This document shows, one piece after another, positions 16,392 through 47,705 of a stretch of 64,000 nucleotides of DNA. Both the position numbers and the translations under genes were made by a program. Position 1 is the first letter of the stretch, and each line of letters opens with the position of its first letter. Below the pieces are notes generated by a model, which was not told where the DNA came from, made no database searches, and saw only the letters and a list, made by a program, of their open reading frames with translations. This DNA is from Bacteroidaceae bacterium. Its GTDB lineage: Bacteria; Bacteroidota; Bacteroidia; Bacteroidales; Bacteroidaceae. The stretch spans positions 1-64,000 of the forward strand of contig JAFZWQ010000031.1 in the NCBI GenBank assembly GCA_017617235.1. Reading direction: 5' to 3'.

Positions 16392-16607
16392 TTCTTCCTT
16401 TTCGTCGAGCAGGGAAGTCAGACGAAGGATTTCGTCGCGATACTGGGCAGCCTCCAGGAAATCCAACCGCTTGGCGGCCTCCTGCATCAGTCGACGGGTA
16501 TTCTCGATGCTCTTGCGCAACTGCTTGGGTGTCATGCTCTCCACAATGGGGTCGGCAGCCATTGGAATCTGAGGCTGTTCGACAACGTAGGCCCGTTGTT
16601 CGTGCTG
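16392..16607 (-). pseudogene. Duplicated 3' end of uvrB (UVR domain fragment)
   Basis: This 216-base segment matches 18674-18889 without gaps and with only three substitutions (16416, 16449, 16551). It encodes the last residues of UvrB, the UVR motif that contacts UvrC (MTPKQLRKSIENTRRL..). Similarity stops abruptly at 16608, so it has no start, helicase or promoter and is a truncated copy. With the intact uvrB it forms a direct repeat around a 2.07-kb segment. The open frame can be extended upstream to 16778, but that part is unrelated. Confidence 0.9.
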
Positions 16608-32154: not shown

Positions 32155-32205
32155 GAAATACTATATCAGGCGGACGTCCTCGATGTGCTGGATTTCGGGC
32201 TCTGT
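32155..32205. repeat. Left direct repeat of the defence island (yraN 3' end copy)
   Basis: These 51 bases are identical to 45327-45377, which span the stop codon and last codons of yraN plus six bases beyond. The sequence diverges immediately on both sides (32154 and 32206). It looks like an attachment-site duplication or a recombination scar. Confidence 0.9.
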
Positions 32206-32245
32206 CGGCATTTTTTATTCCCTTTATTAATTAATTGAGTATTTG

Positions 32246-32280
32246 TTTGCAGATGTAAGATATTATATCTACATTTGCAG
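32246..32280 (+). promoter_or_regulatory. Promoter of the restriction operon with overlapping inverted repeat
   Basis: TTTG (32246-32249), 20 bases, TACATTTG (32270-32277). The spacer and -7 box form an imperfect inverted repeat: TGCAGATGTAAGATA on the left against TATCTACATTTGCA on the right. A dimeric repressor could bind there. Confidence 0.65.
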
Positions 32281-32281
32281 C

Positions 32282-32863
32282 ATGAACACATCGAGTAACT
32301 CAATTACTAAAGAAAAAATGAGCTTAAAAAGGCTTGCAAACATACAATCGGGGGTTTACATAAAGGGGACCCCCACAGGAAACGTTGCCTGTTTGCAGGT
32401 CAAGGACATCATTCTGTCTTCTCCAGAGAAGACGGCTATCCACGTAGAGTTTTCACCAAAGATTGAAAACTATATTCTTCGCAAAGGTGATTTGCTGTTT
32501 GCCGGAAAGGGCACTACGTACTTGTGTCAAGTATTTAACTTCGACATCCTGGCAATTCCTTCTACCACATTGTACGCTATTCGACTACGGACAAACAAAG
32601 TTTCTCCAGAATATCTGTGCTGGTATATGAATCATCCCAAGGTTAGGGCTATGGTTAAATCGGCACAAGTAGGGACAGGCTCTCCTTTGATTCACAAATC
32701 GACATTGGAGAATTTGGAAATCATTGTTCCCGACAGAGAGACACAACAACAGATCGTAGAGTTAGCCAACTTACAAAAGCGGGAGGCTTATCTTATTAAC
32801 CAAATAATGGAAAGGAAAACACAAATCACCAATCAGATACTTATTAATGAATTAAATAAATAA
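32282..32863 (+). CDS. Half-size type I restriction specificity subunit
   Basis: A 193-residue HsdS-like protein with a single target-recognition domain (KRLANIQSGVYIKG start, LRKGDLLFAGKGTTY, KSTLENLEIIVPDRETQQQIVELA) and one helical spacer. Full HsdS has two of each, so two copies would have to pair, or it contributes an alternative half-site. The ATG at 32282 lies only four bases after the -7 box. A start at 32318 (MSLKRLANIQ, 181 residues) gives a normal leader and may be the real one. It is the first gene of the operon, six bases before hsdM. Confidence 0.85.
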   Translation: MNTSSNSITKEKMSLKRLANIQSGVYIKGTPTGNVACLQVKDIILSSPEKTAIHVEFSPKIENYILRKGDLLFAGKGTTYLCQVFNFDILAIPSTTLYAIRLRTNKVSPEYLCWYMNHPKVRAMVKSAQVGTGSPLIHKSTLENLEIIVPDRETQQQIVELANLQKREAYLINQIMERKTQITNQILINELNK

Positions 32864-32868
32864 CAGAT

Positions 32869-34398
32869 ATGGATACGACAAAAATTAGTCAGGAGGACAT
32901 TAACCGCACCGTATGGAAGGCCTGCGATACGTTTCGAGGAGTGATTGACCCCAGCCAGTACAAAGACTATATTCTTACGATGTTGTTCTTGAAGTATGTG
33001 AGCGATGTCTACAAGTCGAAACTGAGCGACTATCTTATTAAATATAATGGTGACAAGGAGCGTGCTGAACGTGCCATGCGGCATGAACGTTTTGTCGTGC
33101 CAGAGAGAAGTTCGTTTGATTTCCTTTATGATAATAGGAATGCCACCAATATCGGAGAACTGATTGATGAGGCATTGGCAGACCTTGAGGATGCCAATCG
33201 TGAGAAGATGAGCAGCGAGGACGGTAGCAGTATCTTCCGCAATATTAGTTTCAATAGTGCCAACTTGGGTGAACCGAAAGAGAAGAATGCCCGTCTGAAG
33301 AACCTGTTGCAAGACTTTCGCGAGTTGGATTTGGACGAATCGCATTTGGAGAACAACGATATCATCGGTGATGCCTACATGTATCTTGTTTCTACCTTTG
33401 CAGGAGAGGCAGGCAAAAAAGCTGGAGACTTCTTCACGCCAGCAGAGGTTTCTACCCTATTGGCAAAACTGACGAAAAGTAAGCCTGGCGCTCGTATCTG
33501 TGATGTTACATGCGGTTCTGGCTCATTGTTGATTAAGGCGGGCAAGGAAGTAGAGAACAAAAATTTCTCACTCTATGGTCAGGAAGTGAACGGCAGCACA
33601 TGGGCGCTCGCCATGATGAACATGTTCCTACATGGTTTCGACAATGCTGTCATTCGTTGGGGTGACACATTGCGTAATCCTAAACTGAAGGTCAACGACA
33701 AACTCATGAAGTTTGATACTGTGGTGGCCAATCCCCCTTTCTCTCTCGATAAGTGGGGAGCCGAGGATGCTGCCAGCGACCCCTATAACCGTTTCTGGCG
33801 TGGCATCCCTCCCAAGAGCAAGGGCGACTGGGCTTTCATCAGTCACATGTTGGAGGTGGCTGACGACAATACGGGCAAGGTGGGTGTCATCATTCCTCAT
33901 GGTGTCCTCTTCCGTGGAGGCAGCGAGGGAAAGATACGTCAGTACATCTTAGAGAACGAACATACTTTGGAAGCAGTTATTGGCCTGCCTGCCAACCTAT
34001 TCTATGGTACTGGCATTCCTGCCGCTATTGCCATCTTCCGTAAGGGCCGCAACTCCGAAAACGTGTTGTTCATCGACGCCAGCCGTGAGTATGAGAATGG
34101 CAAGAACCAGAACAAACTGCGCCCGCAGGATATAGAGCATATCGTCACCACTTATCGCAAGTTCGCTGATGGAGAGTTTGCTCCTGGTGTAGCCGAAGAC
34201 AAATATGCCTTTGTTGCCACCCCTGATGACATCCGAGAGAATGACTTCAACCTCAATATCCCCCGTTATGTTGATACATACGAGGAAGAAGCCGAGATTG
34301 ACATCCCTGCTGTTCAGAAGGAAATAGAGCAGCTAGAAACTGAACTTGCAGAAGTGCAGGTGAAGATGAAAGAGTATTTAAAGCAATTAGGTTATTAA
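32869..34398 (+). CDS. hsdM: Type I restriction-modification DNA methyltransferase
   Basis: Methylates adenine N6 in the recognition site together with HsdS. The 509 residues have the helical HsdM_N domain (SQEDINRTVWKACDTFRG, ILTMLFLKYVSD). SAM motif I is DVTCGSGSLLIKAG near 208-220 and catalytic motif IV is NPPFSLDKWG near 287. A C-terminal coiled tail (VQKEIEQLETELAEVQVKMKEYL) contacts HsdS. GC is visibly lower than in the flanking chromosome. Confidence 0.95.
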   Translation: MDTTKISQEDINRTVWKACDTFRGVIDPSQYKDYILTMLFLKYVSDVYKSKLSDYLIKYNGDKERAERAMRHERFVVPERSSFDFLYDNRNATNIGELIDEALADLEDANREKMSSEDGSSIFRNISFNSANLGEPKEKNARLKNLLQDFRELDLDESHLENNDIIGDAYMYLVSTFAGEAGKKAGDFFTPAEVSTLLAKLTKSKPGARICDVTCGSGSLLIKAGKEVENKNFSLYGQEVNGSTWALAMMNMFLHGFDNAVIRWGDTLRNPKLKVNDKLMKFDTVVANPPFSLDKWGAEDAASDPYNRFWRGIPPKSKGDWAFISHMLEVADDNTGKVGVIIPHGVLFRGGSEGKIRQYILENEHTLEAVIGLPANLFYGTGIPAAIAIFRKGRNSENVLFIDASREYENGKNQNKLRPQDIEHIVTTYRKFADGEFAPGVAEDKYAFVATPDDIRENDFNLNIPRYVDTYEEEAEIDIPAVQKEIEQLETELAEVQVKMKEYLKQLGY

Positions 34399-34417
34399 CA
34401 CAAAGTGGATTTACGAA

Positions 34418-35431
34418 ATGCAAAATCTAATTATTAATTTCTTGTCCAATTATACATTGAGTATTGCAATGGTTCACTTCATTGCTGCTGTTGTTTTGTT
34501 TTACTTAGTCAACTGGGTTGGTGCTCGTTCAATATCTGTCGGTTATATGCAGATGTCTATTATCGCAAAAGAAGAAACAGCGCCAGCGTTTAATTTTCTA
34601 TTCAAGGTACTTTCTCCTATAGTTTTTCTTATCCTGTTTATTGTAGTCGTCCAAACACTTAATCACAAAGAATTCGTTCAAGCAAGTTATCTAATTGTAG
34701 TATATTATTGGTTATTTCGTACATTCGTCATTATACTTTTAGGGCGTAGAAGATTGACAAATTGGAAATTGCACTTTATATACTGGGTGGTATCTATTGT
34801 TCTGTCAATCTGGATTTATTCTCTTGTTGAACAGGTAGATAAACTTTTACCTACTCCTCGCTCTCTATTAGATCAGATGTGGATACTGATAATCATGTTT
34901 CTCTATAGTGTGTTTAACAACATTGAACTCTCACGTGCTGGAATACTAAAACGAAAAGAGGATTATATCTGTCACCAGTATGCTTATTTCAAAAAGAAAT
35001 ACGGTGTTATTATATCAAAGCATTGTGAAAACGATTTTTATGAAGTGGCTACTTATTCTATCTTGATATGTGAGAATTTTAACCGCCCCACGATTGTTCG
35101 TTGGGTTGAGTATTTACGTTTCTTTTTAACCCGAACACCTCATACATTAGGCGTAATGCAGGTACGCACGAATAAATATATCAATGATGGTAAATCCATA
35201 GTTAAAGCCATTGATATTATAAAACAGGCGGGCTTAAAACATAAGCAAAAGGTAGCGACAGAGAAAAATGAATATAGTTATGATTCTCCTAATTCTGCGC
35301 TCTACGAAATAGCTGGATGCTACAATTGCAACAACGTGGACTATCAGTCTGAAGTTTGCAGTATCTATGAAACGGTAAAAGAAAATTATGACTATGTTGA
35401 AAGAGACTATGAAAGCATTGTTGTAGTGTAG
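34418..35431 (+). CDS. Membrane protein with lysozyme-like motif, in restriction operon
   Basis: A 337-residue protein of no recognised family. Five hydrophobic segments (about 15-35, 60-80, 88-109, 118-138, 152-170) precede a soluble part (175-337). That part holds ICENFNRPTI (Glu219) followed 26 residues later by TLGVMQV (244-249). This spacing and the GxMQ pattern recall the catalytic Glu and GLMQ motif of SLT lytic transglycosylases; the resemblance is by eye only. It sits between hsdM and hsdS, where a classical system has no gene. It could be an effector, an anchor or an unrelated passenger. Confidence 0.7.
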   Translation: MQNLIINFLSNYTLSIAMVHFIAAVVLFYLVNWVGARSISVGYMQMSIIAKEETAPAFNFLFKVLSPIVFLILFIVVVQTLNHKEFVQASYLIVVYYWLFRTFVIILLGRRRLTNWKLHFIYWVVSIVLSIWIYSLVEQVDKLLPTPRSLLDQMWILIIMFLYSVFNNIELSRAGILKRKEDYICHQYAYFKKKYGVIISKHCENDFYEVATYSILICENFNRPTIVRWVEYLRFFLTRTPHTLGVMQVRTNKYINDGKSIVKAIDIIKQAGLKHKQKVATEKNEYSYDSPNSALYEIAGCYNCNNVDYQSEVCSIYETVKENYDYVERDYESIVVV

Positions 35432-35475
35432 TGGAATGACGGTATGAGTATTAGACAAAATATAGTGTAAATAAA

Positions 35476-36711
35476 ATGAATAAAGAAAGGGTTATACCAC
35501 AAGGCTATAAAGACTCTCCACTTGGTATCATTCCAAAGGAATGGGAAGTGAAGAGGTTGGGAGACTATGTTACTATAACAAGTGGGGAGAGTCCGTCATT
35601 ATATGAATTAAGGGAAACAGGGTTATACCCTTATGTCAAAGTTGAAGACTTGAATAACTGTTCAAAATATCAAATTGAAAGCAGAGAGTATTCTAATGAC
35701 ACTAGAAATATCATACCGAAAGGAAGTATTATTTTTCCGAAGAGAGGTGCTGCGATTCTAAACAATAAAGTACGGATAGCACAGACAGATATTCTTATGG
35801 ATAGTAATATGATGGCAATTACTGTAAAAGATAGCTGTCTTGATTATGAGTTTCTATATTATACGATTATTAGAGAGCAATTATACAAAATTGCTGATAC
35901 TTCTACTATACCACAAATAAATAATAAACACATTATACCATATCGCTTTTGTTTGCCATTAATGGACGAACAAAAGAATATTGTATCTTTATTGATAACA
36001 TGGGATGTTGCCATAGAGAAACAATCTAAATTGATTGAAAAACTCACTTTGCGCAAACGTGCATTGATGCAGCAACTCCTCACTGGCAAGAAACGTCTGC
36101 CAGGATTTAGTGAGGATTGGAAAGAAGTAAAATTGGGAGAATTTGGGACTTTTTTCAAAGGTGGCGGTGTTCCAAAAGACAAGATAATTGGAGAAGGACA
36201 TAAATGCTTAACATACGGAGACCTTTACACTAAATATGATTTCGTAATTTCTGACGTACAATCTTATATTGACGATGAAACGGCAAATGAAAGTACGGAA
36301 ATCCAATATGGTGACATTTGCTTTGCTGGCTCAGGTGAAACCAAAGAGGAGATAGGCAAATGCGCTACATTTATCGATGGAGAATATGGTTATGCTGGAG
36401 GAGATATTATCGTATATAGAGCAAAGGGTGTAAACCCTATCACGCTTTCGTATATTCTTAACTCTGATAATGTCATTAGACAAAAAAGCAATATGGGGCA
36501 AGGACATTCTGTTGTACACATTTATCCATACCAACTGGAGAAAATCTCAATAAAACTGCCTCCTAAGGAGGAGCAAGATGCTATTGCTTCTATTCTTATG
36601 AAAGCAGACAAAGAAATAGGACTCGCCAATGAGGAACTAACAAACCTAGAATCTCAAAAGCGAGGCTTAATGCAGCAATTATTAACTGGTAAAAAAAGAG
36701 TAATAGGATAA
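35476..36711 (+). CDS. hsdS: Type I restriction specificity subunit
   Basis: A 411-residue full-length HsdS that directs the HsdM/HsdR complex to a bipartite site. It has two target-recognition domains (WEVKRLGDYVTITSGES onward; WKEVKLGEFGTFFKGGG onward). Each is followed by a conserved helix ending in a near-identical LMQQLLTGKKR repeat (about residues 197-206 and 398-408). These internal repeats are where domain shuffling usually occurs. A separate half-size S gene exists at 32282. Confidence 0.94.
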   Translation: MNKERVIPQGYKDSPLGIIPKEWEVKRLGDYVTITSGESPSLYELRETGLYPYVKVEDLNNCSKYQIESREYSNDTRNIIPKGSIIFPKRGAAILNNKVRIAQTDILMDSNMMAITVKDSCLDYEFLYYTIIREQLYKIADTSTIPQINNKHIIPYRFCLPLMDEQKNIVSLLITWDVAIEKQSKLIEKLTLRKRALMQQLLTGKKRLPGFSEDWKEVKLGEFGTFFKGGGVPKDKIIGEGHKCLTYGDLYTKYDFVISDVQSYIDDETANESTEIQYGDICFAGSGETKEEIGKCATFIDGEYGYAGGDIIVYRAKGVNPITLSYILNSDNVIRQKSNMGQGHSVVHIYPYQLEKISIKLPPKEEQDAIASILMKADKEIGLANEELTNLESQKRGLMQQLLTGKKRVIG

Positions 36712-36713
36712 GT

Positions 36714-37502
36714 ATGGAATCAAATATCGCAAAATATCAAAAGGATATTGAGTCTCTATCCCAAAGAGGTCGTCTGCTTTTATTTGGTTTGTATAATGAA
36801 TTAGGGAAAGAATATAAAATTCCCAATAATGTGCCAGAAAAAGAAAAAACGCTCTTCAAATCACTTACTTTCATAGACAAATACAATTCATGGTACAACG
36901 AGGCTTTAATTGTTGTTAAGCAATTAATGCCTGAAAGACTTATTGATTTTATTTCTTATTATAAAATAGAGAAGAGGAAAGATATTGATTATGAGACATA
37001 CACAATCAGTGATTATCTTATCAATCTTAGAGTAACTCAAGGTGCCCGTGTATTAGTTGACACTTCTTCTGTTCTCAATAAGTATACCCAGCAATATTTT
37101 ATAGTAGAGTCATTAAAAGATAGATTCTCAAGTTCTCTATATAACATCAAACAGTTATTGCAAGCTGATTTATTTGATTCAGAGATAGATGCTGCAAGAG
37201 AATTATGTAAGAAAGGTTTTTATAGAGCATCTGGTGCAATTTATGGTGTTGTCATCGAGAAACACCTGAGTGAAATATGCACACAAAGAGAAATTAAAGT
37301 CAGTAAAAAGAATCCCGCAATAAATGACTACAATCAGTTATTAAAAGATAATGATGTGATAGACACCCCAACATGGCGATATATTCAGAGGCTTGGAGAC
37401 CTTCGAAACTTATGTGACCATAAGAAAGCAGAAGAACCAACAGAAAATAATATTAAAGATTTGATAGAAGGTACGGATAAAGTAATAAAGACAGTTTATT
37501 GA
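36714..37502 (+). CDS. HEPN-like protein in restriction operon
   Basis: A 262-residue, mostly helical protein. The C-terminal half (about 150-262) has the pattern of HEPN domains: a helix ARELCKKGFYRASGAIYGVVIEKHL, then GDLRNLCDHKK, which supplies the R-x4-H motif (R231, H236) used by HEPN ribonucleases. The N-terminal half is unassigned. HEPN nucleases such as PrrC and RloC act as back-up effectors beside type I systems, and this gene is two bases after hsdS. RNase activity is therefore a reasonable inference, but HEPN domains also occur as inactive scaffolds. Confidence 0.7.
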   Translation: MESNIAKYQKDIESLSQRGRLLLFGLYNELGKEYKIPNNVPEKEKTLFKSLTFIDKYNSWYNEALIVVKQLMPERLIDFISYYKIEKRKDIDYETYTISDYLINLRVTQGARVLVDTSSVLNKYTQQYFIVESLKDRFSSSLYNIKQLLQADLFDSEIDAARELCKKGFYRASGAIYGVVIEKHLSEICTQREIKVSKKNPAINDYNQLLKDNDVIDTPTWRYIQRLGDLRNLCDHKKAEEPTENNIKDLIEGTDKVIKTVY

Positions 37503-37508
37503 TTTGCA

Positions 37509-38390
37509 ATGAGTCTTGGCACATTTATAATAGACTTCTTCACATCAAGGGAATGGGCATCCATTACTCTGATTGCATTATTTGTCCTTCTGTCAGCAAG
37601 GGCAAAAAGTGTTAGAGGAAGTATATTAGGAGTCGTAAAAGCATTCTTCCATTGGAAGATACTCCTGCCTATTATTTGTGCCCAGATATATTTATCCATA
37701 TTTGCATACGCTCTCTATAAATATGGTTTGTGGAATACAACAATCTTACGAGAGACAATATTCTTTTTGTTCTACACAAGCATAGCACTTATAATTAAGT
37801 ATAACAATAACGATGACCGTATCACAAGCATCAAGGGGATTGTTGAAGATACAGTAAAGGCAACACTGGTCATAGAGTTTTACCTTAACATTCATACCTT
37901 TTCATATGGAGTTGAATTAACCATTCAGTTCCTTCTTTGTATTTTATATTTAATGGGGACATTTAATAAAAGAGATACAAAAGAATTGCAGAAAGTAGAT
38001 GGTTGCACTCAAACTATATTCTATTGTCTCTCAATATATTTATTAACCTACAGTATTTACATGTCCATAAACCAATGGAGGGAGAATTTTATGCCACAAA
38101 ATGTCATATCGCTATTATTCCCTATTGTAGCAACAATAGCATATTGGCCCTTTTTTTATCTATTCTCGGTTATAAAAGCTTATGAAGAATGGTTTGTTAG
38201 AATGAGGTTTGCGTCAAACAAAGAAGAATATGGGTTTAGAAAGAAACAAGTCTTTAAAACCTGTAGAATAAATTTGGGCATGATTAATTTTGTGAGTAAA
38301 GACTTTCATGTATATATACCACAAACACAAGAACAGTTCGTGGAAGACTTAATTAAATCGGTTGAGAAATACAAAACAAAGAAAATATGA
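37509..38390 (+). CDS. Multi-spanning membrane protein in restriction operon
   Basis: A 293-residue protein with about seven hydrophobic segments (16-32, 51-70, 78-97, 116-130, 133-151, 168-187, 199-221). A basic cytoplasmic-looking tail of about 70 residues follows (EEYGFRKKQVFKTCRINLGM, then TQEQFVEDLIKSVEKYKTKK). I do not recognise the family. It starts six bases after the HEPN-like gene and overlaps the AlbA_2 gene by four bases, so it is translated with them. A membrane effector or sensor role is conjecture. Confidence 0.7.
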   Translation: MSLGTFIIDFFTSREWASITLIALFVLLSARAKSVRGSILGVVKAFFHWKILLPIICAQIYLSIFAYALYKYGLWNTTILRETIFFLFYTSIALIIKYNNNDDRITSIKGIVEDTVKATLVIEFYLNIHTFSYGVELTIQFLLCILYLMGTFNKRDTKELQKVDGCTQTIFYCLSIYLLTYSIYMSINQWRENFMPQNVISLLFPIVATIAYWPFFYLFSVIKAYEEWFVRMRFASNKEEYGFRKKQVFKTCRINLGMINFVSKDFHVYIPQTQEQFVEDLIKSVEKYKTKKI

Positions 38391-39829
38391 TAACTAAGGA
38401 CGAATTACAGGAATTATTGCAAAGTACCGAGACATATCGGGTGGAGCGTACAACCTCTACTGGCGATATGGATAAGTTTCAAGAAGCAATCTGTGCTTTT
38501 TCCAATGACTTGCCAAACTCCCGAAAGAATGGATATTTAATTATTGGGGCTCACGATAATGGTACGTTGTCAGGACTAAAAGTAGATGATGCCTTGATGA
38601 AAAAGATTGCAGCCATCCGTTCTGATGGAAACATCTTGCCATTGCCGATTATGTCTGTTGAGCGTTTTGAGTTTCCAGAAGGTGATTTGCTTGTAGCTGA
38701 GGTGTCCCCTTCTTTACTCCCACCCGTTCGCTATCGTGGAAGGACCTTTGTGCGCGTTGGTCCTCGTCGGGATATTGCAACAGAAGCCGAAGAAAGAATA
38801 TTATTAGAACGTAGAACTTCATATATGGCGACTTTTGATGCTATGCCTTGCCTGGGGGCAAGCATCAATGATGTTGATACAAACTATATCAAACAGGACT
38901 ATCTTCCACAGGTGATTGATACTGAAGTGTTAGCAAGTGACAGGCGTGATATAAAGGAGCAACTGGCCTCCATACATCTTTACGACCTGACACACGATTG
39001 TCCGACCAATGCAGCAATTATTCTTTTTGGTAACAATCCACGTCATTTTTTGCCAGGCTTTTACATTCAATTTGTTCGCTTTGCAGGAAAAACCATTGGA
39101 GGGCAGGTCCTCAATGAAAAACGATTCCAAGGACCACTCTATCGGCTTCTGCCTGAATTGGAATTGTTTGTAAGCAATGCCATTATTACTCAGAGGCCGA
39201 TTGCGATAAGTCTGTTTCGCGAAAAAGCAGTCATCAACTATCCCAACAACGCACTACGCGAATTGTTGATGAATGCGTGTATGCATCGTGATTATCAGTC
39301 GAACATGCCTATTCGTCTATATCAGTTTGACGACCATATTGAGATTATGAATGCTGGCGGACTATATGGTGAAGCACGTCCTGAGAATTTCCCTACAGTC
39401 AATGACTATCGGAATCCTATCATTGCAGAAGCCATGAAGGAGATGAAATACGTTAATATGTTTAATCAGGGTATCAGGCGTGTACAAGAAATGCTTCAAG
39501 ACAACAATAACAAGGAAGCTGTTTTTGATGTTTCTAAGTTAACCGTTTTTGAAGTGAATGTTTTCTCAACAGTTGAAGATGTCCCTCAAGGTGATACCCA
39601 AGGTGATACTCATGATGATACTCAAGATGATACTCAAGGTGGTACTCAAGAGAATAATCTTGATTTATGGATAGAGAATCAGATAAAGAAAAATCCCAAA
39701 GTGACAACAGAGGAGTTGGCAAGTTTGAGTAATAAAGGAGTAGCAACGATTAAACGTCATCTTGCAAAACTCTCCCATATCAAATATGTGGGAAGCGGTT
39801 ATAGTGGACACTGGGAAATAGAAGAATAG
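38387..39829 (+). CDS. AlbA_2 (Schlafen-like) and HATPase-type regulator
   Basis: A 480-residue protein with an N-terminal AlbA_2/DUF4062-type nucleic-acid-binding domain (GYLIIGAHDNGTLSGLKVDD, RYRGRTFVRVGPRR). A C-terminal ATPase-like domain (NALRELLMNACMHRDYQ, DHIEIMNAGGLYG) follows. A linker of five 12-base repeats encodes GDTQ/DDTQ, then a winged helix (NPKVTTEELASLSNKGVATIKRHLAKL). Such proteins are annotated as transcriptional regulators or RNA-binding proteins and often occur in defence islands. It lies directly before hsdR. Confidence 0.85.
   Translation: MITKDELQELLQSTETYRVERTTSTGDMDKFQEAICAFSNDLPNSRKNGYLIIGAHDNGTLSGLKVDDALMKKIAAIRSDGNILPLPIMSVERFEFPEGDLLVAEVSPSLLPPVRYRGRTFVRVGPRRDIATEAEERILLERRTSYMATFDAMPCLGASINDVDTNYIKQDYLPQVIDTEVLASDRRDIKEQLASIHLYDLTHDCPTNAAIILFGNNPRHFLPGFYIQFVRFAGKTIGGQVLNEKRFQGPLYRLLPELELFVSNAIITQRPIAISLFREKAVINYPNNALRELLMNACMHRDYQSNMPIRLYQFDDHIEIMNAGGLYGEARPENFPTVNDYRNPIIAEAMKEMKYVNMFNQGIRRVQEMLQDNNNKEAVFDVSKLTVFEVNVFSTVEDVPQGDTQGDTHDDTQDDTQGGTQENNLDLWIENQIKKNPKVTTEELASLSNKGVATIKRHLAKLSHIKYVGSGYSGHWEIEE
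39590..39649 (+). repeat. 12-bp tandem repeat encoding GDTQ/DDTQ
   Basis: Five consecutive 12-base units of the type GGTGATACTCAA keep the reading frame, so copy-number change would lengthen the linker four residues at a time. Confidence 0.85.
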
Positions 39830-39836
39830 GTCAGAT

Positions 39837-42800
39837 ATGGATAGGATATCATTCAAGGAAAACGATATTAGCCAGAGGCCGGCAGTAGAGTTATTACAGA
39901 AGCTGGGGTATCAATATATCTCGCCAGATGAGGCTTTGGCTATGCGTGGCGGAAAGACTTCCAATGTACTATTGGAGGAAGTGCTGAGGCGGCAGTTACG
40001 AGAACTAAACTCTATCAGAATAGGTACGCATAAGGAGGCACGCTTCTCAGAACAGAACATCGAGAACGGCGTGGTTGCCATGAAAAATGTACCCATGCAG
40101 GGCGGTTATCTCAGTGGCAATGAGGCAGTCTATAACATGCTAACATTGGGCAAGGCTTTTGAGCAGAGTATTGATGGCGATAAGAAAAGTTACACGATGC
40201 GGTATATAGATTGGGAACATCCAGAGAATAACGTCTATCATGTAACAGAGGAGTTTGCTGTAACCCGCACAGGTTCATCAGACACCTATCGTCCTGACAT
40301 TGTCCTGTTTGTAAACGGAATTCCACTGGTCGTTATTGAATGTAAACGACCTGACATCAAAGGGGCAGAGGAACAGGCGATTTCCCAACACCTACGTAAT
40401 CAGCTGGACGATGGAATCAGGGGGCTCTATGTATATAGTGCCATGCTGTTAGTCGTAGGAAATAATTTTGGGCGCTACGGGACAACGGGATCCGCAGCTC
40501 AGTTCTGGGGAAGCTGGCATGAGATGTTCATCAACAAGGAAGAAGAACAAATGTATCATAAAAAAATCTCGACCATCGTAAACGACAGTTGCGAGGAAGA
40601 GCGCATCCCTACCCTACAAGATGAATACATCTACAATCTTTGCCGCCCCCAAAGACTACTGGAACTTACTTATCATTTTACGATATATGATGCTGGAATA
40701 AAGAAACTAGCTCGCTATCAACAATACTTTACAGTAAAAGAAACAGTAGAACGTATAAAGCAGATTGAGACCGGCAAGCGCAATGGAGGCGTAGTCTGGC
40801 ATACACAGGGAAGCGGAAAGTCATTGACGATGGTCATGCTGGCACAGAAGATAGCTACCGTAGTGCAAAATCCCCGCATTATTTTAGTAACGGATCGTAC
40901 AGACTTAGACGCACAAATCACTAAGACCTTCCGCAAATGTGGCAAGGACGTAAAAAATGCTACAACGGGTAAGATGTTGGTGGAACTGCTGGAAAGCAAT
41001 ACGGATTCTGTGGTTACGACTATCATCAACAAATTTGCTACTGCCATTAAGAAAATAAAGCAGCCGTTGACAGACCCGAACATCTTTGTGCTGATAGACG
41101 AAGCACATCGTAGCCAGTATAAAGAGATGGCAATACAGATGAACCGAGTATTGCCCAATGCCTGTAAGATAGCTTTTACGGGTACACCGTTGATGAAGAA
41201 AGACAAAAACACGGCACTTACCTTTGGCGGTATCATCAAGCCTGTATATACTGTAAGGCAGGCCGTGGAAGACCATGCTGTCGTTCCTCTGCTTTACGAA
41301 GGGCGAATCGTACCACAGCTTGTTACAGAAGGCCCAATAGATAGTTTCTTTGACCGTGTCTGCGAGGACTTGACAGAGGAACAATCAGTTGACTTGAAAA
41401 AGAAGTTCTCGCGTACCGATGTACTTAATCAGACTGAGCAACGCATCTATTCCATCGCTATGGACATTTCCGACCACTTTGCCAATAGATGGAAAAATAC
41501 AGGATTCAAGGCAATGCTAGTAACCCCAAAGAAACGAGTAGCCATATTGTACAAAAAGTTTCTGGATGAAATAGGCAAAGTTTCATCCGAAGTGCTGATT
41601 ACAGCACCCGATGACCGAGAAGGAGAGGAAACGGCCTACGGAGGGACATCGGAAGAGGTGAAAATGTTTTGGAAAGAAATGATTGACGAGCACGGAACAC
41701 CTAAGAAATATCAGGATAACTTGATTGCACGATATAAAGGACAGGCAGAACCTGAGATAATGATTGTCGTGGATAAACTATTGACGGGATTTGACGAACC
41801 AAAGGTTGCAGTGATGTATCTCGACCGTCATCTGTGTGGACACACATTATTACAAGCCGTAGCTCGTGTAAACCGCACTTGCGAAGATAAGGAATACGGA
41901 TATATCATAGACTATTATGGAGTATTGGCAGAACTGGATAATGCCCTAAGTATTTACTCTGAATACGACGAAGAAGACAAGGAGGTATTCCGCGAGACCC
42001 TGACACCCGTCAGTGATAAAATCTTCGAGCTGCCACAAAAGAATGCCGAGCTATGGGATATGTTCGAGACGATTCCTAACAAACGGGATTTGGAGGCATA
42101 TGCACAATACCTTCGGCCCGCAGACCGCCGTCATGAGTTCTATGACCGTTTGACCGCATTTTCATCGACTCTTCAACTGGCTCTTTCGACAAAAGAGTTC
42201 TTTGAGCATACTGATGAGAAAAACATTCAACGATATAAGGATGATTTGAGGATGTTTGCCAAGCTCCGAACGTCTGTCCAACTGCGCTATTCAGATGCCG
42301 TCGATTATAAAAAATATGAAAGCCGGATTGAGAAATTAATTAATCGTCATGTAGAAAGTGACGAGGTTAAGGTTATTACGAATCTGGTCAACATCTTTGA
42401 TACTGAAAACTTCCAAAAAGAGGTTGATAACATAGTTGGTATTGCAGCGAAAGCTGATACCATAGCATCACGTACTGCTAAATATATTAAGGAGAACATG
42501 GACTCCGACCCAGCGTTCTATAAAAAGTTCTCTCAACTCATAAAGGAGACCATAGAAGCTTACGAACAAGGACGGCTTAGTGATAATGAATATCTGGAAC
42601 GAATGATAAAGGCAAAAGGAGATGTTTTGAATCATACAGATAATGAGATACCCATAGAACTGAAACATAGCAATACGGGAAAAGCCTACTATGGTATTGC
42701 GTTAGAGAACTATAAGCGATTATTCCCCGATCAGGACGTTAAGAAAATAGCACTCAAAACTGCTAAAGCATTTGACCAAATCATTCAAGGTATGGTAGTT

Positions 42801-42983
42801 GTCGACAATTCCGTGATTATTGATTGGCAGACGAATTCAAACCTTATCGGCCAGGTGAAGATTGCATTAGAGGATGAGCTCATTGACAACGTCAAGCGAA
42901 AGTATGAACTTGACTTCTCATTTGACGATATGGATGCGATTATTAACGCGTGTGTCGATGTTGCAAAAATATGGATCAAGTGA
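39837..42983 (+). CDS. hsdR: Type I restriction endonuclease and translocase subunit
   Basis: Translocates and cleaves unmethylated DNA. The 1048 residues have an N-terminal nuclease domain (TYRPDIVLFVNGIPLVVIECKRP, with D and E-x-K). Walker A is GSGKSLTMVM near 324, the DEAH box LIDEAHRSQYKEM near 420, FTGTPLMKKDK is motif III, and the second RecA lobe includes LLTGFDEPKVAVMYLDRHL and QAVARVNRTC. A helical HsdM-contact C-terminus follows. It appears intact, so restriction should be active. The last 13 bases overlap the protease gene. Confidence 0.96.
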   Translation: MDRISFKENDISQRPAVELLQKLGYQYISPDEALAMRGGKTSNVLLEEVLRRQLRELNSIRIGTHKEARFSEQNIENGVVAMKNVPMQGGYLSGNEAVYNMLTLGKAFEQSIDGDKKSYTMRYIDWEHPENNVYHVTEEFAVTRTGSSDTYRPDIVLFVNGIPLVVIECKRPDIKGAEEQAISQHLRNQLDDGIRGLYVYSAMLLVVGNNFGRYGTTGSAAQFWGSWHEMFINKEEEQMYHKKISTIVNDSCEEERIPTLQDEYIYNLCRPQRLLELTYHFTIYDAGIKKLARYQQYFTVKETVERIKQIETGKRNGGVVWHTQGSGKSLTMVMLAQKIATVVQNPRIILVTDRTDLDAQITKTFRKCGKDVKNATTGKMLVELLESNTDSVVTTIINKFATAIKKIKQPLTDPNIFVLIDEAHRSQYKEMAIQMNRVLPNACKIAFTGTPLMKKDKNTALTFGGIIKPVYTVRQAVEDHAVVPLLYEGRIVPQLVTEGPIDSFFDRVCEDLTEEQSVDLKKKFSRTDVLNQTEQRIYSIAMDISDHFANRWKNTGFKAMLVTPKKRVAILYKKFLDEIGKVSSEVLITAPDDREGEETAYGGTSEEVKMFWKEMIDEHGTPKKYQDNLIARYKGQAEPEIMIVVDKLLTGFDEPKVAVMYLDRHLCGHTLLQAVARVNRTCEDKEYGYIIDYYGVLAELDNALSIYSEYDEEDKEVFRETLTPVSDKIFELPQKNAELWDMFETIPNKRDLEAYAQYLRPADRRHEFYDRLTAFSSTLQLALSTKEFFEHTDEKNIQRYKDDLRMFAKLRTSVQLRYSDAVDYKKYESRIEKLINRHVESDEVKVITNLVNIFDTENFQKEVDNIVGIAAKADTIASRTAKYIKENMDSDPAFYKKFSQLIKETIEAYEQGRLSDNEYLERMIKAKGDVLNHTDNEIPIELKHSNTGKAYYGIALENYKRLFPDQDVKKIALKTAKAFDQIIQGMVVVDNSVIIDWQTNSNLIGQVKIALEDELIDNVKRKYELDFSFDDMDAIINACVDVAKIWIK

Positions 42984-43678
42984 TACACGACAGCATTCAA
43001 TATGGGACAACTACAATAGAATACGACTTCGATCTTGTCCCAAGAAAGACATTGGGTATCTATGTACATCCTAATGGGAATGTGTTGTTGAAAGCTCCTC
43101 TTGATTCCACATTAGAAGCTATCAGGGAGAAAGTTGAAAAGAAAGCGATGTGGATATTACGGCAAAAACGTTTTTTTGCGTCTTTTACCCCCTCCACTAT
43201 AGAACGTCGTTATGTAAGCGGGGAATCTCATCTATATTTGGGGAGACAATATATGCTGAGAATAAAGGAGAGCGAAATTAATGCCGTTCACTATCAAAGC
43301 AACGTCATTGAGATAGAATGCCGTCAAAAAAAGAATGCTGGTATTTTGCTACAAACATGGTACAGGAAACGTGCAAACATTAAGTTCTTAGAATATGCAC
43401 AGCCTATTATTGAACAATTTGCTGTTTATGGTGTATCACCCAAAAGCATTTCGATAAAGATAATGCAAAGGCGATGGGGATATTGTTCTTCGAATGGAGA
43501 AATTACATTAAATCCCAGACTTATCTGTGCCCCCAGATGTTGTATAGAATATGTAATTACCCATGAAATGTGTCATCTAATTTACCGTAATCATAACAAA
43601 AAATTCTACACCCTGCTTACAAAGGAAATGCCCCATTGGGAGAAATGGAAGGCTAAACTGGAAAGAATGTTAGCCTAA
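42971..43678 (+). CDS. YgjP/DUF45-type zinc metallopeptidase
   Basis: A 235-residue protein with the SprT/YgjP metal site HEMCHLIYRNHNKKFY (HExxH plus a downstream His) and the family motif MQRRWGYCSSNGEITLNPRLI. Genes of this family commonly follow hsdR in type I loci. They may process or regulate the restriction complex, which is inference. The ATG at 42971 overlaps hsdR, which suggests coupling. Confidence 0.9.
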   Translation: MDQVIHDSIQYGTTTIEYDFDLVPRKTLGIYVHPNGNVLLKAPLDSTLEAIREKVEKKAMWILRQKRFFASFTPSTIERRYVSGESHLYLGRQYMLRIKESEINAVHYQSNVIEIECRQKKNAGILLQTWYRKRANIKFLEYAQPIIEQFAVYGVSPKSISIKIMQRRWGYCSSNGEITLNPRLICAPRCCIEYVITHEMCHLIYRNHNKKFYTLLTKEMPHWEKWKAKLERMLA

Positions 43679-43730
43679 ATTACACGCATACTAGGACACT
43701 TATTCCCTATAATACATATTATTAAGACGG

Positions 43731-44360
43731 ATGAAAGAGCAACGCCTGTACACAATCGGTCATTCCGACCACTCTCAAGAGGAATTCATATCCATGCTTC
43801 GCCAATACGAAATTGATTGTATTGTCGATGTTCGAAGTGTACCTGCCAGCAAACACGTTCCTCAATATAACCAAGAAGAACTGAAATGGCTATTGAAACA
43901 AAATGGAATAGCATATCTGCATTTTGGTAATGAATTCGGAGCACGACGAACAGATTGTATAAATATAGACGGACAGGTTGATTTTGAACGAACCACAGAA
44001 ACACCTGCTTTCAAGAAGGGGATATTAAGAATAAATAAGGGGCTGGAAAGAGGCTTTCATATTGCATTAATGTGTTCTGAGGCCAATCCCTTGGAATGTC
44101 ACAGATATTCGCTTGTTGCACGTTTTTTTTATGAACATGGATATGACGTACAACATATTCTACATGACGGGACATCGGTATCGCATGCTATACTTGAAAG
44201 AAAGATGATTGAAGAGCTTCTGCATTCTAGAAAATATCATCTTGCAAAGACAGATCCCCTGTTTGGATCTTACACAGAGGAGGAACAACGAACAGATGCA
44301 TATCGGCTGAAGAATAAGGAAATCGGCTACCGTCCGCAGGAAGAATATGAAATCGACTAA
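43731..44360 (+). CDS. DUF488-family protein
   Basis: A 209-residue protein with the DUF488 start LYTIGHSDHSQEEF, IVDVRSVPASKHVPQYN, and the cysteine loop MCSEANPLECHRYSLVA. Biochemical role unknown. Members turn up in defence islands and pair with dual-OB proteins. The stop overlaps the next start by one base (TAATG). Confidence 0.88.
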   Translation: MKEQRLYTIGHSDHSQEEFISMLRQYEIDCIVDVRSVPASKHVPQYNQEELKWLLKQNGIAYLHFGNEFGARRTDCINIDGQVDFERTTETPAFKKGILRINKGLERGFHIALMCSEANPLECHRYSLVARFFYEHGYDVQHILHDGTSVSHAILERKMIEELLHSRKYHLAKTDPLFGSYTEEEQRTDAYRLKNKEIGYRPQEEYEID

Positions 44361-45316
44361 TGGATAAAACTTTTATTTGTCTTGCTAATTCATATAAACG
44401 CGGGGGACGTTGCATTGCCGGTGTTGAGGTCATGATTGATGAGAACCGACATTGGACAGTTGTTCGCAATCCCAATGGCACTCCCCACTGGATACGACCA
44501 ATTGACAACACCACAGAGTTTGGAGAAATTCCCGAATTCGAAGCTGTACCTATTCGTCTGCTATCTGTTATACGTCTTAGAGATGTTACTCCTTGTTTAT
44601 GTAAGGCTCATTCCGAGGATGTCAGTTTTTCACGAATGGAAATTATAGGGAGTATACTCCCCTGCAAAGCGGCCTTAGAGGAAATGGCAGATTTTCTTCA
44701 TCATGAAATCTTTTACAATAATGAAAGTGCCATATCACTTGACATTTATGCCCAAGGAAACTATTCTCTAATGCTCGTTCGTCCGGAAAGGATTGAATTA
44801 CGTCCCGATATGACCAAACTGAGAGCAAAATACCGAATGATTATATCATATCATGGGACAACTTATGATCTGCCTGTTACTGACCCTGATTATCTTCGAG
44901 AATTAGAGAACACCCCATCTACGCCTATTCCACCTCATGAGGCATATCTGTGTCTTTCACTCGGAATGGAGTTTGAAGGACAACATCACAAACTAATAGC
45001 TGGTGTTATCATTCCATCGGACAGGAATGTAAGTACACCCCATATCATCAAAGGAAATGATGCCACACTATGGGAAACATTTGAGATCCGTCCTTTCACA
45101 TTATGGGAACGCCTAACTATAAAATCAGCCACATATATCCCCTCTTATAGAGGCCCCTCCATCTACCTGCGTAAATGGAACGGAGATGAATTATTTCTAC
45201 CTTTTGAAAATGCGCCTAAGTTGGAAGCATGGACAAAAATCAGTTTACGAAAGACGCTCCTCGTGACCTACGAAGACGAAAGTGGGACCAAAGTTCAAAG
45301 AATTCGGCTGAAATAG
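44360..45316 (+). CDS. Dual-OB-domain-like protein
   Basis: A 318-residue beta-rich protein starting FICLANSYKRGGRCIAGVEV, which resembles proteins annotated as dual-OB-containing. A first OB-like unit covers about 1-100 and a second about 190-318 (EAYLCLSLGMEFEGQHHKLIAGVI). These are thought to bind nucleic acid or nucleotides. It is coupled to the DUF488 gene and is the last gene of the island, ending ten bases before the right direct repeat. Confidence 0.65.
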   Translation: MDKTFICLANSYKRGGRCIAGVEVMIDENRHWTVVRNPNGTPHWIRPIDNTTEFGEIPEFEAVPIRLLSVIRLRDVTPCLCKAHSEDVSFSRMEIIGSILPCKAALEEMADFLHHEIFYNNESAISLDIYAQGNYSLMLVRPERIELRPDMTKLRAKYRMIISYHGTTYDLPVTDPDYLRELENTPSTPIPPHEAYLCLSLGMEFEGQHHKLIAGVIIPSDRNVSTPHIIKGNDATLWETFEIRPFTLWERLTIKSATYIPSYRGPSIYLRKWNGDELFLPFENAPKLEAWTKISLRKTLLVTYEDESGTKVQRIRLK

Positions 45317-45326
45317 ATATATTGTA

Positions 45327-45377
45327 GAAATACTATATCAGGCGGACGTCCTCGATGTGCTGGATTTCGGGCTCTGT
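45327..45377. repeat. Right direct repeat of the defence island
   Basis: Identical to 32155-32205. This copy is the natural 3' end of yraN, so the intact target gene lies on this side. Confidence 0.9.
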
Positions 45378-45692
45378 GGTGTTATGGAGAACGACGGAGA
45401 TGATATCGAAACGCACATTGAGGTCGATGCGTTTATAACGGATATAATGGTTGATGGCGGCTATCAGGTTGCGTTGCTTGCTGTAGTTAATGGCCTCGTA
45501 GGGCTCGCCGAAGTCACGATTGCGGCGTGTCTTCACCTCCACGAAAACGATGGAGTCCGCAGTTCGGGCAATGATGTCAATGTCGCGATGACCCGATTTC
45601 CAGTCGCGTTCCAGTATCATATACCCCTTACGCTCCAGATAGTCTATTGCCAAATCTTCGCCCCAGCGCCCCAGTTCGTTGTGTGCTGCCAT
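45333..45692 (-). CDS. yraN: YraN/UPF0102 endonuclease-like protein
   Basis: A 119-residue PD-(D/E)xK-fold protein: GEDLAIDYLERKGYMIL, DIDIIARTADSIVFVEVKTRRN (D, E-x-K). Often linked with DNA processing or RNase HII genes; exact function unknown. The last 45 bases are the repeat duplicated at the far end of the defence island, so island insertion left this gene whole. A shared-module promoter lies upstream. Confidence 0.92.
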   Translation of the reverse strand: MAAHNELGRWGEDLAIDYLERKGYMILERDWKSGHRDIDIIARTADSIVFVEVKTRRNRDFGEPYEAINYSKQRNLIAAINHYIRYKRIDLNVRFDIISVVLHNTTEPEIQHIEDVRLI

Positions 45693-45719: not shown

Positions 45720-45751
45720 CAAAAATACGAATAAGTGAGCGAAATACCAAA
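45720..45751 (-). promoter_or_regulatory. Promoter of yraN (shared promoter module)
   Basis: Minus strand: TTTG (45748-45751), 20 bases, TATTTTTG (45720-45727). The spacer TATTTCGCTCACTTATTCG is almost identical to those of bamD and lysS. Confidence 0.75.
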
Positions 45752-45753
45752 TT

Positions 45754-45785
45754 TTTCACTTTTCACTTTTCACATTTCACTTTAT
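45754..45785. repeat. CACTTTT heptamers
   Basis: CACTTTT-CACTTTT-CACATTT-CACTTTA, period 7, between divergent yraN and lysS. Confidence 0.65.
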
Positions 45786-45797: not shown

Positions 45798-45843
45798 AGA
45801 GAAAAGTCTCTAAAATACTCCCGTTCGGAAAAACCCAAATAAA

Positions 45844-45875
45844 TTTGGTTTTTCGCTCACTTATTCGTATCTTTG
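45844..45875 (+). promoter_or_regulatory. Promoter of lysS (shared promoter module)
   Basis: TTTG (45844-45847), 20 bases, TATCTTTG (45868-45875). A CCAAAT-AA-ATTTGG palindrome overlaps the -33 box as at bamD. Confidence 0.8.
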
Positions 45876-45887
45876 CACGCGACACAT

Positions 45888-45926
45888 ATAAATTGTAAAT
45901 AGTAAATCGTAAAATTGTAAATTATC
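45888..45926. repeat. TAAATTG heptamers in the lysS leader
   Basis: GTAAATT / GTAAATA / GTAAATC units, mostly period 7, ending a few bases before the lysS ATG. Confidence 0.65.
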
Positions 45927-45929
45927 TCG

Positions 45930-47705
45930 ATGAATATATTGGAACTGAGCGAACAGGAGATAGTTCGCAGAAACAATCTTCAGCAACTGCGCGACCTGGG
46001 CATCGACCCCTACCCCGCTGCAGAATATCCCGTAACAGCTTGGAGCACGGACATCATTCAGGACTTCGTTGACCTGCCCATTATCGGCAAGGACGAAGAG
46101 GGCAATGATGTGCGCGAGACTGCCACACCAGAGAACAGCCCCGTTGTAAGCGTAGCTGGTCGTATCATGAGCAAGCGCATCATGGGTAAGGCTGCCTTTG
46201 CCGAATTACAGGACTCAAAGGGCCGCATCCAGGTGTACGTACAGCGTGACGCCATCTGTCCTGACGAGAACAAGGACCTCTACAATATCGTCTTCAAGAA
46301 GTGCCTGGACCTGGGTGACTTCATTGGTGTGAAGGGTTATGTCTTCCGCACCAAGACGGGTGAGATTAGCGTCCACGTAATGGAGATGACCGTGCTGAGC
46401 AAGAGCCTGAAGCCTCTGCCTATCGTAAAGACGGATGCCGAGGGTAACGTGTTCGACTCATTCGATGACCCTGAGCTCCGCTATCGTCAGCGTTACGTTG
46501 ACCTTATCGTGAACAACGGTGTAAAGGAAACCTTCCTGAAGCGTGCCACCATCATCCGCACCATGCGTAAGATTCTGGACGATGCAGGATATACCGAAGT
46601 GGATACTCCTATCCTGCAGAACATCCCCGGTGGTGCCAGTGCCCGTCCCTTCATGACTCACTTCAACGCCCTGAACCAAGACATGTACATGCGTATCGCC
46701 ACAGAGTTGTACCTGAAGCGTCTGATTGTAGGCGGCTTCGAGGGCGTGTACGAGATGGGCAAGAATTTCCGCAACGAAGGAATGGACAAGACCCACAACC
46801 CCGAATTTACCTGCATGGAGCTGTACATCAGCTACAAGGACCTGAACTGGGGAATGACCTTTACGGAGAATATGCTGGAGCAGATCTGTACAGCCGTCAA
46901 CGGTAAGCCCGAGGTGGAGATTGACGGTAAGGTTATCTCTTTTAAGGCTCCTTTCCGCCGTCTGCCTATCCTGGATGCCATCAAGGAGAAGACAGGCTAC
47001 GACCTTTATCCCATGAACGAGGATGAGATTCGTGAGGTGGCCAAGAAACTGAACATCGAGGTTGACGAGACCATGGGTAAGGGCAAGCTGATTGACGAGA
47101 TCTTCGGTGAAACCTGCGAGGGAACTTTCATCCAACCCACCTTCATAACCGACTATCCTGTTGAGATGTCTCCCCTGACCAAGATGCATCGCAGCAAGCC
47201 CGGTCTGACTGAGCGCTTCGAGTTGATGGTGAACGGTAAGGAGTTGGCCAACGCCTACTCTGAGTTGAACGACCCCATCGATCAGGAAGAGCGCTTCATC
47301 GAGCAAATGAAACTGGCAGACAAGGGTGATGACGAAGCTATGATTATCGACCAGGATTTCCTGCGTGCCCTGCAGTACGGTATGCCTCCCACCTTTGGTA
47401 TCGGTATCGGTATCGACCGTTTGGTGATGCTGCTCACAGGTAAGTTTGCCATTGGCGAGGTCATGCTGTTCCCCCAGATGAAGCCCGAGGTAAAGGCTCC
47501 ACGCGACAAGGATGAGCTGTTCCTGGAGAAAGGCATTCCTGCCGAGATTATCCCCATCCTGCGTAAGGCTGGATACAATCTGGTAAGTACACTAAAGGAT
47601 GAAAATCCCGCCAAGATTCAACAACAGATTATCGAAATCATAAAGAAATACAAGCTGGAAGTTGAGCGTCCATCGCAAGACGAGATAAAAGTCTGGACGG
47701 AGTGA
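45930..47705 (+). CDS. lysS: Lysyl-tRNA synthetase
   Basis: Class II synthetase charging tRNA-Lys. The 591 residues comprise an OB anticodon-binding domain (SVAGRIMSKRIMGKAAFAEL) and a catalytic core with FMTHFNALNQDMYMRIATELYLKRL (motif 2 region) and FGIGIGIDRLVMLLTG (motif 3). A C-terminal extension of about 85 residues ends in IIEIIKKYKLEVERPSQDE; E. coli LysS lacks this but it is common in Bacteroidota. Confidence 0.96.
   Translation: MNILELSEQEIVRRNNLQQLRDLGIDPYPAAEYPVTAWSTDIIQDFVDLPIIGKDEEGNDVRETATPENSPVVSVAGRIMSKRIMGKAAFAELQDSKGRIQVYVQRDAICPDENKDLYNIVFKKCLDLGDFIGVKGYVFRTKTGEISVHVMEMTVLSKSLKPLPIVKTDAEGNVFDSFDDPELRYRQRYVDLIVNNGVKETFLKRATIIRTMRKILDDAGYTEVDTPILQNIPGGASARPFMTHFNALNQDMYMRIATELYLKRLIVGGFEGVYEMGKNFRNEGMDKTHNPEFTCMELYISYKDLNWGMTFTENMLEQICTAVNGKPEVEIDGKVISFKAPFRRLPILDAIKEKTGYDLYPMNEDEIREVAKKLNIEVDETMGKGKLIDEIFGETCEGTFIQPTFITDYPVEMSPLTKMHRSKPGLTERFELMVNGKELANAYSELNDPIDQEERFIEQMKLADKGDDEAMIIDQDFLRALQYGMPPTFGIGIGIDRLVMLLTGKFAIGEVMLFPQMKPEVKAPRDKDELFLEKGIPAEIIPILRKAGYNLVSTLKDENPAKIQQQIIEIIKKYKLEVERPSQDEIKVWTE

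Follow-up and report, generated by a model that had tools for sequence, protein, structure and literature searches.

The window analysed in this work is a stretch of 64,000 nucleotides from a Bacteroidaceae bacterium (assembly GCA_017617235.1, contig JAFZWQ010000031.1, positions 1 to 64,000), and the genome it belongs to is denoted G000. The window carries an island in which a complete type I restriction operon is accompanied by accessory genes. The island lies between the two copies of an exact 51-bp direct repeat derived from the 3' end of yraN. A near-identical island is carried by another species, denoted G095 (RUG12681, 'uncultured Bacteroidales bacterium', contig CACZJU010000002.1), and the island appears to have moved recently between these two related species. 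The best account of its transfer is that homologous recombination took place at lysS and the left end was joined irregularly, an account to which we assign a probability of about 0.5. This exchange is favoured because the near-identical island occupies the same place in G095 without the repeat or yraN, because the lysS promoter is shared between both genomes, and because none of 61 other yraN loci exhibits a duplicated yraN end.

The original prediction was made from the letters of the window alone, and its description of the locus was reproduced. Sequence comparison of the window recovered the exact direct repeat at 32155-32205 and 45327-45377, with a start-to-start spacing of 13,172 bp. The right copy forms the genuine 3' end of yraN and consists of the last 14 codons, the TAG stop, and 6 nt past the stop. 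The left copy is, as had been proposed, a lone fragment of that end which begins 9 nt past the stop of the MGMT-like gene and overlaps no listed open reading frame (ORF) of at least 80 amino acids (aa). The 13,121 bp between both copies contain 11 plus-strand genes and are AT-rich, as had also been noticed. The guanine plus cytosine (GC) content between the copies is 0.398 compared to 0.533 across the remaining window. The GC content per kb is 0.34-0.48 inside the island and 0.48-0.60 elsewhere, except for 0.387 at 2-3 kb and 0.430 at the 45-46 kb junction. A tRNA search of the window found none. The hsdR, hsdM, and hsdS genes are all present in the island according to Pfam, PADLOC, and NCBIfam, which identifies a type I restriction-modification system. 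The features of the island and its borders are as follows.

32155..32205, plus strand: left repeat copy, yraN 3'-end fragment (exact-repeat search)
32215..32275, plus strand: left edge of the unit common to G095, promoter-like (comparison with G095)
32243..32863, plus strand: half-length HsdS with one specificity domain, 206 aa as listed, start not settled (Pfam PF01420; PADLOC Specificity_I)
32869..34398, plus strand: HsdM, type I methyltransferase, 509 aa (TIGR00497; PADLOC)
34418..35431, plus strand: 337-aa protein, probably membrane (hydrophobic N-terminus by eye), no family above cut-off
35476..36711, plus strand: full-length HsdS, 411 aa, with a different HsdS at the same place in G095 (Pfam, PADLOC)
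36714..37502, plus strand: 262-aa protein with a sub-cut-off HEPN match (E 0.055, 14.1 bits, cut-off 22); an unrelated 239-aa ORF is here in G095
37509..38390, plus strand: 293-aa protein, probably membrane (by eye), no family above cut-off, present in 2/139 congeneric genomes
38387..39829, plus strand: SLFN_AlbA_2 and RecG-C-terminal-like protein, 480 aa (Pfam)
39837..42983, plus strand: HsdR, type I restriction subunit, 1048 aa (TIGR00348; PADLOC)
42968..43678, plus strand: YgjP-like metallopeptidase, start somewhere in 42950-42974 (Pfam)
43731..44360, plus strand: DUF488 protein, PADLOC candidate PDC-M45B (Pfam, PADLOC)
44360..45316, plus strand: dual-OB (DuOB) protein, PADLOC candidate PDC-M45A, whose end is the right edge of the unit common to G095 (Pfam, PADLOC)
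45327..45377, plus strand: right repeat copy, last 14 yraN codons with stop and 6 nt 3' (exact-repeat search, reading of yraN)
45333..45692, minus strand: intact yraN, 119 aa (YraN family / UPF0102 profile match)
45851..45976, plus strand: lysS promoter and first codons, 1 mismatch/126 nt compared to G095, near-identical like the island arms

The island of G095 sits between ABH and lysS, as in the window, and two other genes (a lipoprotein and an epimerase, read by eye) are located to its left. The G095 locus has neither the 51-bp repeat nor an adjacent yraN; its yraN lies about 8 kb past the island, and no direct repeats of at least 12 nt were found between the island flanks when about 1 kb of each was compared. 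The homology between G000 and G095 begins at 32215, a short distance upstream of the presumed promoter of the operon, and continues to the stop of the last gene, with 45314 as the last shared base before the sequences diverge. The left edge (32215-32275) resembles what we take to be a Bacteroidota-type promoter (TTTG ... TAcaTTTG). The immediate left flanks of both islands differ, and thus the left join is non-homologous.

The synonymous divergence (dS) between G000 and G095 is 0-0.44 for eight island genes, and for the neighbouring genes it is 1.47 (aroC), 2.47 (ABH), 1.51 (lysS), 0.95 (gpsA), and 0.87 (pgi). The set of eight excludes the half-length HsdS (its row is out of frame), the full-length HsdS, and the 262-aa gene. 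The half-length HsdS gene shows only 6 differences in 621 nt. The identity to G095 per 250-nt step is 92-99% at 32251-34250, 86-90% at 34251-35500, 77-98% at 37501-40250, and 98.4-100% at 40251-45250. It drops to 48-78% in the specificity centre (35501-37500), where G095 has another HsdS and the unrelated 239-aa ORF. The expectation of different cargo between the same flanks therefore stands in a modified form only: the full-length HsdS and its neighbour differ, and the remaining arms are common to both genomes. The half-length HsdS upstream of HsdM has 99% protein identity between both species, compared to 37% for the full-length HsdS.

Near-identity to G095 resumes beyond yraN, where 126 nt that comprise the lysS promoter and 5' coding sequence (45851-45976) exhibit one mismatch. 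The shared tract ends within lysS codon 16 and the remaining lysS is 83.2% identical. This tract is separated from the island by yraN in G000. The 80 nt upstream of lysS are identical at 79/80 positions between G000 and G095, compared to 19-50/80 between G000 and eight other relatives, in two of which (G008 and G056) lysS directly follows ABH. Upstream identity was also compared for 27 ORF pairs of G000 and G095, 15 of them outside the island. Among these 15 pairs, lysS (79/80) is followed by an ORF antisense to aroC (66) and then by a pair with 63, while the other 12 reach at most 52/80 ungapped and up to 65 with gaps. The near-identical lysS tract suggests a right-hand exchange that ran through lysS, although the position of yraN and the right repeat copy between island and tract in G000 speaks against a simple form of it. 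The island arms and the lysS promoter of G000 and G095 are of recent common ancestry. The yraN-lysS intergenic region also contains an inverted repeat of 35 nt with 94% identity (45720-45754 and 45841-45875), and several relatives have similar promoter-like motifs upstream of their lysS.

According to the favoured account, the island would have been carried along from one species to another by ordinary homologous recombination. The right-hand exchange would have occurred in conserved lysS, so that the lysS promoter would have travelled with the island. On the left side, there is no shared flank and the incoming end would have been joined irregularly, by homology-facilitated illegitimate recombination. 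In G000 this join would have fallen within the 3' end of the yraN already present, which would then survive as a stump in the left copy. The intact right-hand yraN would have come along with the island, from a strain whose yraN ends in the same sequence. The near-identical outer arms may then allow the specificity centre to be swapped. We infer the mechanism and the direction of transfer, how the 51-bp copy arose, and that the donor block contained yraN, which was later lost next to the island in G095.

The left join of G095 also looks irregular. It carries a 24-nt perfect inverted repeat (L067:4762-4822) that reaches from the end of the epimerase gene into the first 8 nt of the unit common to both genomes. 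The sequence of this inverted repeat is absent after six other epimerase copies, and perfect arms of at least 20 nt with loops of at most 20 nt were identified in 3 of the 60 loci screened (0.92 Mb).

The gene order around lysS is fluid. ABH and lysS are directly adjacent in G008, G056, and G063, about 2.4 kb of other DNA (helicase-like by eye) lies between them in G131, and lysS-gpsA is inverted in G025 and G118. Irregular joins at this locus are therefore plausible. In the island-free genomes G103 and G058, ABH faces a single yraN 3' end with lysS on the other side and no MGMT-like gene there, and the distance from the yraN stop to the edge of the ABH match is 32 and 33 nt, respectively. The single-copy junction between the MGMT-like gene and yraN, which had been predicted for relatives without the island, was not found among the places listed for the 139 congeneric genomes, which are fragmented and include none known to be conspecific. 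This junction was checked by eye by comparing the MGMT places (73/139 genomes) with the yraN places. The nearest MGMT-yraN pairs are 0.8-4.2 kb apart (G108, G109, G081, and G111), with other ORFs between them in G108, G109, and G111.

Matches to both HsdR (E <= 1e-200) and the 293-aa protein (E <= 1e-10) were identified only in G000 and G095 among the 139 congeneric genomes. The DNA of the left end likewise has a long match only in these two genomes, with short weak matches in G015 and G078, and a scan of the genome contigs for the island returned one locus, which is that of G095. DuOB is found in 8/139 genomes at E <= 1e-20 and in 3/399 genomes of a family sample at E <= 1e-80, the third at 48%. 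Plasmid or viral carriage of the island was rejected after searches in which none of 72,556 plasmid records matched DuOB and the 293-aa protein had three matches at 23-25% identity, two of which have neighbours that are not a type I operon. Two relatives of HsdR are found in viral contigs (49% and 37%).

Several observations weigh against the favoured account. No exact empty site was seen in the places compared across the 139 congeneric genomes. The yraN gene and the right repeat copy stand between the island and the lysS promoter in G000 and not in G095, and because yraN intervenes only in G000, one of the two loci was altered after the exchange. Identical 51-nt copies need a donor with the same yraN end, and the yraN DNA of G000 is only 68-71% identical to that of six relatives. 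Parts of the tract upstream of lysS consist of motifs seen repeatedly across the genus (50/80 in G131), and the inverted repeat of G095 may simply be a terminator. The island is carried by two genomes only, both of which are fragmented, and an assembly error at the repeat is possible.

The alternative that survives best, which we hold as a possible explanation of clearly lower probability, is a long target duplication. A break-repair or replication accident would have inserted the operon into the yraN 3' end and duplicated 51 bp, with no donor yraN. The exact identity of both copies follows at once from such an event, and the pattern has been described for restriction genes in Helicobacter pylori, according to excerpts of PMC3031569 and PMC1643837. 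However, this event alone leaves the lysS promoter tract common to G095 unexplained.

Site-specific integration at the yraN 3' end is unlikely. The 51-bp copies would be attL and attR, the integrase would have acted in trans or been lost, and the G095 copy would have arisen later by recombination with a G000-like donor. The geometry described in the original prediction fits this explanation, as the gene is intact, an exact repeat is found at its 3' end, and 13 kb of foreign composition lies between the copies. The layout thus stands, but its reading as an integration site is weak. No duplicated yraN 3' end was identified at 61 other yraN loci (60 congeneric genomes), where 3-20 kb downstream was examined, and therefore an integrase site at yraN is not preferred. 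The longest exact downstream repeat of the own yraN 3' end at those loci is at most 13 nt. A yraN match was identified in 114/139 genomes including G000; the scan counted 60 of the 113 others, and nine further rows with less than 3 kb of downstream DNA were dropped, of which one is the locus of the window and one is another G095 stretch. There was no mention of yraN among the literature matches listed for yraN, integration site, and genomic island. The unit common to G095 also stops inward of the repeats, at the edges of the operon.

No recombinase was identified in the island, in line with the original prediction, in that none of its eleven proteins has a recombinase family match at E <= 0.001 (Pfam on nine proteins; PADLOC and NCBIfam on HsdM and HsdR). 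G000 has a single PF00589 (Phage_integrase) match in a 334-aa frame that adjoins a gene resembling rsgA (by eye), and this lone tyrosine recombinase may be Xer-like, judging from its position. PF00239 resolvase has no match at E <= 0.001 in this 85.5%-complete genome, while the same search found matches in 10 of 14 genomes used as a control. An integrase might still lie on a plasmid or in the missing part of the genome. Of the three origins first proposed, homologous exchange is favoured, and an integrase acting in trans and an integrase that was lost are both weak.

The 51-bp repeat is more than a chance match, because the last 45 nt of yraN match the downstream DNA at 45/45 positions in the window and at 27/45 at best elsewhere (ungapped, 68 stretches, 61 other yraN loci), and reversed queries reach up to 28/45. 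A dispersed repeat is ruled out, as the 2.54 Mb of G000 hold just two copies with up to 3 mismatches allowed. The island is not the only place with long exact repeats, because a longer exact direct repeat of 101 nt is found elsewhere in the window (16450-16550 and 18732-18832).

An assembly artefact, in which the left copy or the whole join would be a misassembly of the draft contig, is very unlikely: the genome is a draft of 50 contigs with 85.53% completeness and repeats are places where assemblers err, but the separate assembly of G095 also has the island between ABH and lysS (the independence of the two assemblies is not established) and the bases just inward of the two repeat copies differ from each other.

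Two accessory regions of the island deserve a separate description. The 262-aa protein (36714-37502) contains an RNLCDH motif, which we take to fit the pattern of HEPN RNases. The genes of DUF488 and DuOB (43731-45316) are adjacent in 6/6 other loci that were checked for both (G095, G029, G254, G051, G092, and G023). This pair is located at most 2.4 kb from pgi in G029 and in G254, which belongs to another genus, and no match to the S, M, or R proteins of the island was found near the pair in the available stretch of either genome.

The findings in this work describe a two-species case in which a restriction operon was apparently exchanged without a recombinase of its own and in which both edges are placed within a few bases. 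A piece of the host flank seems to have moved with the operon. A direct repeat at the 3' end of a gene is therefore not proof of an integrase. A wider reading, which we consider doubtful, is that a recombinase-free restriction operon moves between species with exact edges, from its promoter to its last stop codon, and carries a specificity core that can be exchanged. Each landing would rely on a homologous arm as anchor and on a further irregular join, and would leave a duplication of host sequence at the left edge (direct in G000 and inverted in G095).

The favoured event would resemble the long target duplication known from restriction genes. Nobusato et al. reportedly described in 2000 how restriction-modification genes insert with a long target duplication in Helicobacter pylori. 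The island resembles that case in that the host sequence on both sides of its restriction genes forms a long exact direct repeat and no recombinase matched inside. It differs in being a type I system, accompanied by seven accessory genes, in Bacteroidales, and the insert-free allele that defines the pattern is not in hand; this comparison was made through excerpts of citing papers. Those excerpts present such insertions as a described pattern (PMC3031569, PMC1643837, PMC4978471). Integration aided by one homologous flank has also been described, in the part of PMC2884548 that was available. The island is similar to the cases of homology-facilitated illegitimate recombination outlined there for Streptococcus pneumoniae, Acinetobacter, and Pseudomonas stutzeri, with one apparent homologous anchor (lysS) and one irregular join, although here the event is deduced from sequence and was not observed. 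As in SGI1 at trmE, to the extent covered by an excerpt of PMC8409611, the gene is kept intact and the repeat is found at its 3' end; unlike SGI1, no integrase and no reuse of the site were found here and G095 has no repeat. The island is also comparable to the immigration control region and hotspot 37 of Escherichia coli, where, according to an excerpt of PMC12707154, restriction genes are replaced at a fixed locus.

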